Assembly: GCF_026107415.2 (NCBI RefSeq)
Contig: NZ_JAPCHX010000006.1
Location: 1-64,000, forward strand
From: Microbacterium sp. MPKO10
GTDB taxonomy: Bacteria; Actinomycetota; Actinomycetes; Actinomycetales; Microbacteriaceae
Direction of reading: 5' to 3'
DNA: 64,000 bases
Under the pieces are notes generated by a model. That model searched no databases and had not been told where the DNA came from. It worked only from the letters and a program-made list of their open reading frames with translations. The position numbers were made by a program, and so were the translations under genes. Of this stretch, positions 13,793-19,857 are shown piece by piece (within the stretch, counting starts at the first letter, position 1; every line of letters starts with the position of its first letter).

Positions 13793-13864
13793 TGGGGTAT
13801 GGTGTAATTGGCAACACAGCGGTTTCTGGTACCGCCATTCTTGGTTCGAGTCCAGGTACCCCAG
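13793..13864 (+). tRNA. tRNA-Gln (anticodon CTG)
   Basis: A complete cloverleaf can be drawn: acceptor TGGGGTA/TACCCCA, anticodon stem GCGGT/ACCGC around loop TTCTGGT (anticodon CTG, reading CAG), and a T-loop TTCGAGT. The U1-A72 acceptor pair is a known feature of tRNA-Gln. The CCA end is not encoded. It has its own promoter and a terminator 6 nt downstream. Confidence 0.96.
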
Positions 13865-13869
13865 CTCTG

Positions 13870-15958: not shown

Positions 15959-17281
15959 TCAGGCCGGTCCACCGGCGGTTGGCTGATCAATGCCGTCGAC
16001 GACGGCGAACCGGCGTGCGTGAGCGGACCACCCTCGCTCGGTTGGCATCGCGCGGAGAGCGCGATTCGAGAGTGCCAGCAGGGCAGCGACCATTGTCAGT
16101 GCGGCACAGAGCGCCAGCGTCCCGGTCCGTCCGGCTATCGTCAGCCCGAACCCGGCGATGAGCGGAGTCAGTGGCATCGCGCCCATGCTGAACACCCGGA
16201 ATGCGCTGTTCGCGCGTCCCAGCAGCTCGGTGGGGACAGCGACCATGAAGTATCCCATCAGCGCAGAGTTGAGTGCGGGCACGAGGAGCACCGAGAGCCC
16301 GATGACCGTCATGATCGCCGGGACCGTGTGCACCATCACGAGCGCTGTGGTTCCGAGCGTGCACATCACCAGGCTCGCGATGACGATGACGCTGCCGGGA
16401 ATGCGAGGGACGAGCAGCGGCGACACAGCGGCGCCCAGGAGCATGACGCCGCCGAGCACAGCAGTGATCGTGCCGATGATCACGGGGGAGTGGCCCGATT
16501 GCTGCAGCGAGTAGATGATCGTCGTGATCGCAGAGTTGAATCCCAGGTTCGCGAGCATCGCGACCCAAAGCACTCCACGGAGGTCGACGCGAGAGAAGAG
16601 CCAGCTGACACCCTCACGCACCTCGGAGAGCGCGCTGGGTCGAAGGGGCGAGATCTCGGATGCTGCCGGCTGCAGGGCAGCCGTGAGGTTCGCCCCTCGG
16701 CGCAGCAGCACCCACGACGTTGCGGCCGAGATGAGGTAGATCACCGCGGAGAACAGCGCGACGAGCCAGCCGCCGACCGCGAGGAGCGCACCTCCGAGAG
16801 GTCCGCCGGCGAGCTGGATTGCTGCGCCGCGCCCTTGATTCGCAGCTTGAGCGCGCCCCATTGCCTCATCGGGGACGACTTCTTTGAGAGCGACCTCCCC
16901 GGCGATATCGAAGAGTCCCTCACGCGCTCCCAGCAGCGCGTTGAGCGCCAGAAGCACGCCGAATGTGAGGGCCGACGTTCCGTCGAGAACGGCGAACGAC
17001 AGAGCAAGAGCGACGCCAATGCCGGCGCCGAGGAGCATCAGTCTGGGCCGGGAGTGTCGGTCGGCGAGGACACCGCCGCCGAGTGTGCACGTGAGGCGTA
17101 CCACAACCCCGACGGCGCCGATGATTCCCGCCTGCGCCGGGCTGTCCGTCACGATGAGGGCGATCAGGGGCACGGCGAAATCGAGAAGTGCTCCCGCGAG
17201 TTCCTTCGCGGAATCGCTGAGAAACCACGTCGGATAGGACGCGACCCGCCAGAGTCGGATCGGGGCGTCTGAAGATGTCAT
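15959..17281 (-). CDS. MFS transporter
   Basis: A 440-residue major-facilitator protein with about twelve membrane segments. The motif A-like loop GGGVLADRHSRPRLML follows the second helix, and charged central and C-terminal cytoplasmic stretches are visible. Its form resembles the drug-efflux branch fused to ArsR-type regulators (MdtG/TetV-like). Substrate unknown. I chose the ATG at 17281: a -10 box (TACGGT on the minus strand, 17293-17288) lies exactly 6 nt before it, suggesting a leaderless message, and the conserved protein starts there although the frame is open for 45 more codons. It is divergent from the HTH regulator at 17362 and shares an array of repeats with it, so it is probably that regulator's target. 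Confidence 0.92.
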   Translation of the reverse strand: MTSSDAPIRLWRVASYPTWFLSDSAKELAGALLDFAVPLIALIVTDSPAQAGIIGAVGVVVRLTCTLGGGVLADRHSRPRLMLLGAGIGVALALSFAVLDGTSALTFGVLLALNALLGAREGLFDIAGEVALKEVVPDEAMGRAQAANQGRGAAIQLAGGPLGGALLAVGGWLVALFSAVIYLISAATSWVLLRRGANLTAALQPAASEISPLRPSALSEVREGVSWLFSRVDLRGVLWVAMLANLGFNSAITTIIYSLQQSGHSPVIIGTITAVLGGVMLLGAAVSPLLVPRIPGSVIVIASLVMCTLGTTALVMVHTVPAIMTVIGLSVLLVPALNSALMGYFMVAVPTELLGRANSAFRVFSMGAMPLTPLIAGFGLTIAGRTGTLALCAALTMVAALLALSNRALRAMPTERGWSAHARRFAVVDGIDQPTAGGPA

Positions 17282-17287
17282 ACGGTC

Positions 17288-17293
17288 ACCGTA
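17288..17293 (-). promoter_or_regulatory. -10 box of the MFS gene
   Basis: TACGGT on the minus strand, 6 nt before the ATG at 17281. It directly abuts the GCGCAA repeat array. Confidence 0.5.
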
Positions 17294-17296
17294 GAC

Positions 17297-17344
17297 GCGC
17301 AAGGAAAGATGCGCAACTAGCATTGCGCAATTATCGATGCGCAA
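17297..17344. repeat. Four GCGCAA direct repeats at an exact 14-bp period (probable operator array)
   Basis: GCGCAA occurs at 17297-17302, 17311-17316, 17325-17330 and 17339-17344. Each start is exactly 14 bp from the next. The third copy is extended to the palindrome ATTGCGCAAT (17322-17331); the second and fourth are preceded by GAT. The array fills the space between the -10 box of the MFS gene (17288-17293) and that of the ArsR-like gene (17350-17355), so it covers both -35 regions. The natural reader is the HTH protein encoded next to it; this is inference. Confidence 0.8.
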
Positions 17345-17349
17345 TCGAG

Positions 17350-17355
17350 TAGCCT
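17350..17355 (+). promoter_or_regulatory. -10 box of the ArsR-like gene
   Basis: TAGCCT, 6 nt before the ATG at 17362, with no ribosome site; probably a leaderless message. Confidence 0.5.
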
Positions 17356-17361
17356 TGAGAC

Positions 17362-18003
17362 ATGACGAGTGCGGAGGAGAACGCCCACGACAGTGCCGAG
17401 GTGGTGCACGGCGCATCTTCGGCAGGCGGACATGCGTGGCATGCCGAAGATGAGGTGATGACGGAGGCGATGCTCAAAGCGCTGACGCACCCCGTGCGCC
17501 GGAGAATCCTGCGGGTGCTCGGGCAGAAGGTCTACGCGCGCTCAGCAGACCTGGCCCAGGCACTCGGCGTCGCGGCGAACTCGGTCAGTTTCCACGTTCG
17601 GACCCTGGCCGATGCCGGCCTGATCGAAGAGGCCCCCGAACGCGCGCGAGACCGCCGTGATCGGGTCTGGACGCCGGTGCGAGGAGGCCTCAACGTCGGC
17701 ACCCCGGAGCATCCTGTCCGCGACGAGGTTCTCGCCGACGCTCTCATGAGAGCCATGGTCGAGGACCACTACGACCTCGTGAACCGGTCGAGTGCGAGCT
17801 GGATGGAGTTCATCGCCGGGCGCAACGCCCGAATGCGTTCAAACTTCATGCACATGAACGTCCCGATGGATGCCGAGACCGCCGAGACTTTCTTTCGGAC
17901 GATCAGTTCATTGGCCGATGAGGCAGCCGAGCGCCTCGATCCGGATGACCCGGATGTACACGTCTGGGAGATCGACGTCATTGCGGCTGACGACACCGTC
18001 TGA
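17362..18003 (+). CDS. ArsR-like winged-helix transcriptional regulator
   Basis: A 213-residue regulator. Residues about 35-110 form a winged helix-turn-helix (EAMLKALTHPVRRRILRVL, then YARSADLAQALGVAANSVSFHVRTLADAGLIEE). This matches the ArsR/HTH_20 class that represses efflux genes. No CxC metal site is visible, so it is probably not a metal sensor of the classical ArsR type. The C-terminal half (VEDHYDLVNRSSASWMEFI onward) is a helical domain of the kind seen in regulators paired with MFS pumps and may bind a ligand or dimerise. It is divergent from the MFS gene with a 14-bp-period repeat array between, so I infer autoregulation and control of the pump. Confidence 0.9.
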   Translation: MTSAEENAHDSAEVVHGASSAGGHAWHAEDEVMTEAMLKALTHPVRRRILRVLGQKVYARSADLAQALGVAANSVSFHVRTLADAGLIEEAPERARDRRDRVWTPVRGGLNVGTPEHPVRDEVLADALMRAMVEDHYDLVNRSSASWMEFIAGRNARMRSNFMHMNVPMDAETAETFFRTISSLADEAAERLDPDDPDVHVWEIDVIAADDTV

Positions 18004-19777: not shown

Positions 19778-19850
19778 GGCCCCATCGTCTAGCGGCCTAG
19801 GACGCCGCCCTCTCACGGCGGTAACGCGGGTTCAAATCCCGCTGGGGTCA
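19778..19850 (+). tRNA. tRNA-Glu (anticodon CTC)
   Basis: Acceptor GGCCCCA/TGGGGTC (one G-U pair), D-arm GTCT..GGAC, anticodon stem CCGCC/GGCGG around CTCTCAC (anticodon CTC, reading GAG), and T-arm GCGGG/CCCGC with loop TTCAAAT. CCA is not encoded. It is followed within 8 nt by a strong terminator. Confidence 0.96.
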
Positions 19851-19857
19851 CAATCTG

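Follow-up and report, generated by a model that had tools for sequence, protein, structure and literature searches.

The question raised by this locus is what a row of identical short elements does between two divergent genes, and which protein reads it. In the window (the whole 64-kb stretch of DNA analysed) of Microbacterium sp. MPKO10 the hexamer GCGCAA starts on the + strand at 17297, 17311, 17325 and 17339, with a step of exactly 14 bp, and the whole array lies between two divergent leaderless-looking promoters. The original prediction had placed four copies at just these positions, with copy 1 lying 3 bp past the putative -10 box of the MFS gene and copy 4 ending 5 bp short of the -10 box of the regulator gene, and had described copy 3 as a 10-bp palindrome (ATTGCGCAAT); all of this agrees with the sequence. 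The palindromic core is TGCGCA in copies 2-4 and CGCGCA in copy 1. The genes and promoter elements around the array are as follows.

15959-17281, minus strand: MFS transporter gene (Pfam MFS_1, 6.2e-22), with ATG 17281 as the chosen start
17288-17293, minus strand: putative MFS -10 box, TACGGT on the minus strand (ACCGTA on the plus strand), followed by 6 nt and then ATG, a leaderless geometry
17311-17316, minus strand: putative MFS -35 box, TTGCGC on the minus strand, exactly 17 bp from the -10 box and identical with array copy 2
17350-17355, plus strand: putative regulator -10 box, TAGCCT, followed by 6 nt and then ATG
17362-18003, plus strand: HTH_20/ArsR-like winged-helix regulator gene (213 aa, Pfam)

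The start of the MFS gene was set at ATG 17281 because relatives start at the matching place and because the longest open reading frame, which begins at 17416 inside the regulator gene, would cross the array; the match of the protein to TIGR00900 is under the cut-off of that model. The regulator carries a winged-helix domain, with 42.4 bits for HTH_20 (cut-off 27) and 23.6 bits for HTH_5 (cut-off 22) in Pfam, and is also above the respective cut-offs of HTH_24 and Fe_dep_repress. Against the ArsR/SmtB metalloregulator model NF033788 it reaches 43.7 bits, under the cut-off of 55, and its 213 residues include no cysteine and hence no thiol metal ligand. By these comparisons the protein groups with ArsR-like winged-helix regulators and not with metal sensors. 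The AlphaFold2 model (mean pLDDT 78.8, residues 1-29 below 50) contains helices 61-68 and 72-84, strands 88-90 and 102-105, and two long C-terminal helices, where residues 72-84 (ANSVSFHVR...) are the predicted recognition helix. The top structural match, 4g6q (Kfla_6221), is an uncharacterised Kribbella protein which was also returned by the sequence search. Two tRNA genes are situated a few kb from the array, tRNA-Gln (anticodon CTG, window 13793-13865) on one side and tRNA-Glu (anticodon CTC, window 19778-19851) on the other.

Counted singly, GCGCAA is no more frequent in the window than expected (50 observed versus 53.1 expected). The array is nevertheless the sole case in the 64-kb window of a hexamer run of at least four copies at one period of 7-40 bp, none of 40 simulated 64-kb sequences (first-order Markov) contained such a run, and runs of at least three copies numbered 7 in the window versus 0-4 in 10 simulations; the four-copy periodic run is not a product of chance. 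In the whole 3.75-Mb genome a set of three GCGCAA copies spaced by 14 bp is confined to this locus when up to 2 mismatches are tolerated, and 6 other places appear when 3 are allowed. The candidate idea of a second target in the same genome was rejected after a search with a two-unit pattern, which gave no match with up to 1 mismatch and, at 2 mismatches, 25 matches, fewer than the 59 of the reversed control.

For the comparison with relatives, upstream regions were chosen by similarity of the regulator protein and reduced from 157 to 134 by shared 11-mers, and the arrays were thinned from 78 to 64 by similarity. Eight duplicate loci (L108, L110, L112, L115, L119, L120, L121, and L124) and the weak own-genome paralogs L002 and L004 were left out of the counts, and loci found by the motif itself (L072-L107) were excluded from the family counts of conservation, symmetry, half-sites and promoters. 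The profile alignment A1 includes motif-found regulators in 5 of its 27 rows (L072, L091, L092, L098, and L101), which is a mild bias. Order-level relatives comprise 30 and 80 loci taken among the higher-ranked of the matches listed, and the recognition-helix residue was read in 80 loci, 20 of them from further stretches.

The original prediction had been staked beforehand on the conservation of hexamer and period in relatives. The array at 14 bp next to the regulator is kept in all four other genomes examined from the genus, and the wider family mostly retains it: the pattern CAA-N11-CAA (period 14) is present in 104 of 134 non-redundant upstream regions versus 3.5 in dinucleotide shuffles and is absent from the remaining 30 regions upstream of related regulators, and the neighbouring periods of 13 and 15 (CAA-N10-CAA and CAA-N12-CAA) are seen in 1 and 0 of 134. 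Likewise, CAA-N6-TTG was found in 90 of 134 upstream regions (4.6 in shuffles) and the TTG-N2-CAA junction in 85 (4.5 in shuffles), while a second arrangement with the same period, built on TTGCAA junctions, occurs in 29 of 134. In the control comparison, limited to the 60 of 134 regions with enough flank, CAA-N11-CAA was present in 55 upstream, 0 coding and 1 far-upstream sequences. Of the 54 arrays with enough flank, 39 are accompanied by a divergently oriented homolog of the window's MFS gene, which was undetected in the other 15.

Of 327 genomes in the order, 186 gave a match to the regulator. The idea that the array is conserved throughout the phylum was rejected, since the exact pair TTGCGCAA-N6-TTGCGCAA is found in just 6 of 396 phylum-wide genomes, 4 of which have it next to a family regulator and 2 elsewhere; because these exact matches are so few, the claim of breadth rests on the order-level set.

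The next question is what the repeat unit is. The GCGCAA hexamer itself is probably not the unit. The better reading, though not a proven one, is that the unit is a 14-bp inverted repeat GCAA-N6-TTGC and that the TTGCGCAA palindromes are the junctions between units, and on the same footing the window array is better described by three such repeats placed end to end from 17299 to 17340.

17299-17312: putative operator unit 1, GCAA-GGAAAG-ATGC, a 14-bp inverted repeat with one half-site mismatch
17313-17326: putative operator unit 2, GCAA-CTAGCA-TTGC, with perfect half-sites
17327-17340: putative operator unit 3, GCAA-TTATCG-ATGC, with one half-site mismatch
17341-17344: outer half-site GCAA after unit 3, with no matching partner one unit on

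Alternatively, each 8-bp TTGCGCAA palindrome could be one dimer site, the array being four sites 14 bp apart with their dyads on the junctions, as the nearly perfect palindromes of the core copies would suggest. The ends of the arrays bear on this choice. In the 64 arrays the inner half of the element one period beyond the core matches at 173/256 and 169/256 positions at the two ends, the outer half at 106/256 and 102/256, and the next period out from this flanking element at 71/256, 89/256 and 56/255, 59/252. The outer halves are therefore weaker than the inner ones, yet above the next period out. An inner-half match is expected in terminal elements if this half completes a terminal unit, and the fact that mainly the array-facing half is kept there speaks against dyads on the junctions, while the match partly retained in the outer halves speaks for them.

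Loci where only one of the two symmetric elements is exact point in both directions, and their numbers are indicative only. Counted by eye, 11 loci (for example L003, L196, L199, and L204) have the unit in exact form but no exact junction, 9 of them with a symmetric outer base, and this disfavours the junction-centred reading; among the 11, L142 proves to be an array whose junction has one mismatch, and a degenerate second unit was seen by eye in L135, L149 and L163, so that truly isolated units are fewer than 11. The reverse, an exact TTG-N2-CAA junction where no exact unit exists, was seen in 6 loci, among them two mismatch-bearing arrays (L024 and L056), and these loci favour the junction-centred reading, as does L040. 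In this locus, from an Actinoplanes relative, a single palindrome, 18 bp long and with TTGCGCAA at its centre, lies shortly upstream of the regulator, an exception to the GCAA-N6-TTGC model.

In a global test the unit was symmetric in 121 of 167 cases versus 88.0 expected, and the junction in 94 of 136 versus 89.9. Under within-locus permutation, however, the excess of the unit was gone (36/76 versus 38.2), so the global excess reflects differences between loci, and within-unit symmetry was dropped as a proof of the unit. The same permutation left the junction under expectation (15/43 versus 21.8), that is, the junction bases of mixed arrays show less symmetry than chance would give, which is a further point against dimers centred there. 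Spacer positions 1/6 and 2/5 have no significant symmetry, and at positions 3/4 it is below expectation (19/167 versus 45.4). In four g189 (probably Streptomyces) arrays, all from one genus, the 10-bp arms that lie outside the pair agree about the unit centre at 8, 10, 7, and 8 of 10 positions, with shuffled means of 4.4-5.8, and about the junctions at 3 to 8 of 10. Finally, with dyads on the junctions a dimer would have to seat its two recognition helices at a distance of about 4 bp. According to these data the junction-centred arrangement is unlikely, and the 14-bp inverted repeat is retained as the unit below.

The original prediction had considered a 14-bp period unusual for a dimer-binding winged-helix repressor. 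For a dimer as such this does not stand, because a distance of 10 bp, roughly one turn, separates the two half-sites of a unit and the 14 bp would simply be the length of the unit; what stays unusual on this reading is the rigid end-to-end packing at 1.33 turns. The accompanying proposal of polymerising or wrapping binding is not demonstrated by rigid packing, which does favour contacts between neighbours. Alternatively, the array could be four direct-repeat half-sites for head-to-tail polymerising monomers similar to BldC, and the strict periodicity together with the variable copy number (2-4 core elements per array) would suit such a filament. Elements occur, however, in both orientations, single units are inverted repeats, and ArsR-like proteins with known structure are dimers, making this arrangement very improbable.

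The register of the units is strict: consecutive exact CAA-N6-TTG units are spaced by 14 bp in 73 cases, by 28 bp in 4 and by any other distance in none, the fixed spacing of the putative dimer sites being that of cooperative multi-dimer operators of the CodY/Zur type. CAAAG elements are likewise spaced by 14 (28 times), 28 (2) or 42 bp (1). It may be supposed that each unit is an operator in its own right, bound without cooperativity, that further units were gained to tighten occupancy, and that 14 bp is just the closest packing; palindromic units could indeed bind singly, and the paralog L003 in the same genome has a single unit. In this case the spacing should drift, yet 73 of 77 consecutive distances are 14 bp and the other 4 of 77 are 28 bp, so independent operators are given a modest chance at best. 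Cooperating dimers on abutting units are preferred, since a fixed register favours contacts between neighbours.

Several repeats outside the main set were also observed. The distant paralogs L002, L003 and L004 of the window genome have single 14-bp inverted repeats of another half-site type upstream, namely ACAAGAAGTCTTGT in L003 and, by eye, GAAGCATACGCTTC in L002 and CAACAAAGTAGTTG in L004. In a second subfamily (L014 and the class B loci among L169-L217) the recognition helix is mostly SSGATSYHLR-like, and the upstream regions contain CAAAG elements with a 14-bp period and TTGCAA junctions, so that the half-site differs and the period is the same.

Neighbouring spacers within an array have a likeness of 2.05 of 6 positions versus 1.90 between loci, with shuffles reaching up to 2.36. 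Because neighbouring spacers differ about as much as those of different loci, the array is kept by selection and does not result from recent tandem duplication. This has to be set against the suggestion that the repeats are promoter elements or debris of tandem duplication with no dedicated reader. One copy does suit a -35 box, but this would account for one copy and not for four, neighbouring spacers are unrelated, and the array is tied to one regulator family; such an origin is hardly credible.

The contribution of the array to the promoters is itself regular. With a -10 box permissively defined as TANNNT 6-8 nt before the start codon, 62 of 64 arrays have a box next to the regulator gene and 50 of 64 have one next to the MFS gene. 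Of these 50 arrays, 47 also carry TTGCGC at a distance of exactly 17 bp upstream of the MFS-side -10, and for this reason one array element probably doubles as the MFS -35 box. In the window the array spans the stretch between both -10 boxes, as had been anticipated, and this operator-like overlap with both promoters of a divergent regulator/transporter pair is the geometry of a divergent autoregulated efflux operon with a repressor and an MFS pump.

Which protein reads the array was approached by a search for TTGCGCAA-N{0,30}-TTGCGCAA across 396 genomes of the order, where 50 genomes gave matches. Among 30 loci taken from the matches listed, a family regulator was present in 12 of 13 with a gap of 6 and in the one locus with a gap of 20 (two periods), and in none of the 16 loci having another gap. 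The domain begins about 250-280 bp from the array in L075, L089, and L090, three of the 12 loci, and one more of the 12, L077, is the same locus as L008, already in the profile. Two further kinds of occurrence were noted. The pair TTGCGCAA-N3-TTGCGCAA is present in five g43 genomes (G717, G534, G733, G573, and G750), where the family regulator is absent from the two loci checked (L099 and L100), probably another system, and the g140 genomes G538 and G734 carry eleven and nine TTGCGCAA pairs, several of them followed by TCCGTCGG, which resembles a dispersed repeat family.

The half-site was also compared with residue 73 of the regulator. With N73 the first half-site base is G 150 times, A 5 times, C twice and T once; with G73 it is G 15 times and A 41 times; all 21 CAAA-type loci in which the residue was read carry G73, and the GCAA-type locus L037 has S in place of N73. 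A tree computed with the helix columns omitted shows one change of N73 and three of the operator type, and covariation with the recognition helix was dropped as independent evidence because a single change of N73 deprives the Fisher value of this association of its independence. By these comparisons the half-site type tracks the regulator subfamily, the match being with subfamily via few evolutionary events. Since half-site type goes with regulator subfamily, the adjacent HTH_20/ArsR-like protein, which had been named as the obvious candidate, is the likely predicted reader of the array, and the regulators found at 12 of the 13 gap-6 loci point to the same protein.

In our opinion the array is probably the shared operator of the MFS/regulator pair, which would accept one HTH_20 dimer per 14-bp unit and repress both genes. 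This proposal starts from the position of the array, its conservation, the strict 14-bp register, the promoter overlap and the link with the regulator family, to which it would add one dimer per unit, cooperative contacts, repression and a ligand. Each GCAA-N6-TTGC would take one regulator dimer, with one recognition helix in each of two half-sites 10 bp apart, while successive dimers would be 14 bp, about 1.33 turns, apart and rotated by about 120 degrees round the helix. Three dimers would thus make four helical turns over 42 bp, most of the stretch between the -10 boxes. Neighbouring dimers may cooperate through mutual contacts and occlude RNA polymerase at both leaderless promoters, whereby the regulator would repress its own gene and the pump gene until an inducer, probably an export substrate of the pump, frees the operator.

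Several known systems resemble parts of this proposal. With the ArsR/SmtB-type repressors (HTH_5/HTH_20; for example SmtB, CzrA, NolR, and Phr) the regulator shares the winged helix, according to Pfam, a solved-structure sequence and the structure match, and would presumably also share the role of local autorepressor beside a transporter. It differs from them in the absence of cysteine, a score below the metalloregulator cut-off, extra C-terminal helices and the row of abutting 14-bp putative operators. BldC of Streptomyces forms head-to-tail asymmetric oligomers on direct repeats (PMC5859096); it is likewise an actinobacterial helix-turn-helix protein whose binding sites vary in length, whereas the units of the window array read as inverted repeats. 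CodY (PMC10415144) and E. coli Zur (PMC4219657) are described as two dimers on one operator region with cooperative dimer-dimer contacts. They belong to other families, and the sites of CodY overlap, while here units abut at 14 bp and rows of three are possible. RdfS (PMC11963761) is a winged-helix protein that oligomerises on DNA with no apparent consensus motif, unlike the strict motif and spacing of the window array. Cooperating dimers (CodY, Zur), direct-repeat filaments (BldC) and winged-helix oligomers (RdfS) are kinds already known. In the open-access literature no description was found of an operator of rigid abutting 14-bp inverted repeats with subfamily-specific half-sites.

The wider reading, which we hold to be evenly poised between true and false, is that an actinobacterial HTH_20 branch would place its dimers end to end every 14 bp, with an invariant step and a half-site code (GCAA, ACAA, CAAA) switched by the recognition helix. 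Taken jointly and with the same balance, this would be a large uncharacterised branch in which at least two dimers spiral as a short repressor helix, 1.33 turns each. On this wider reading the operators of many unstudied HTH_20 regulators would become readable from sequence. The array layout itself provides a rule for predicting operators in a widespread family of regulators, offers an easily tested case of winged-helix dimers that would pack at non-integral helical turns, and suggests that a single repeat may act as operator junction and -35 box together.
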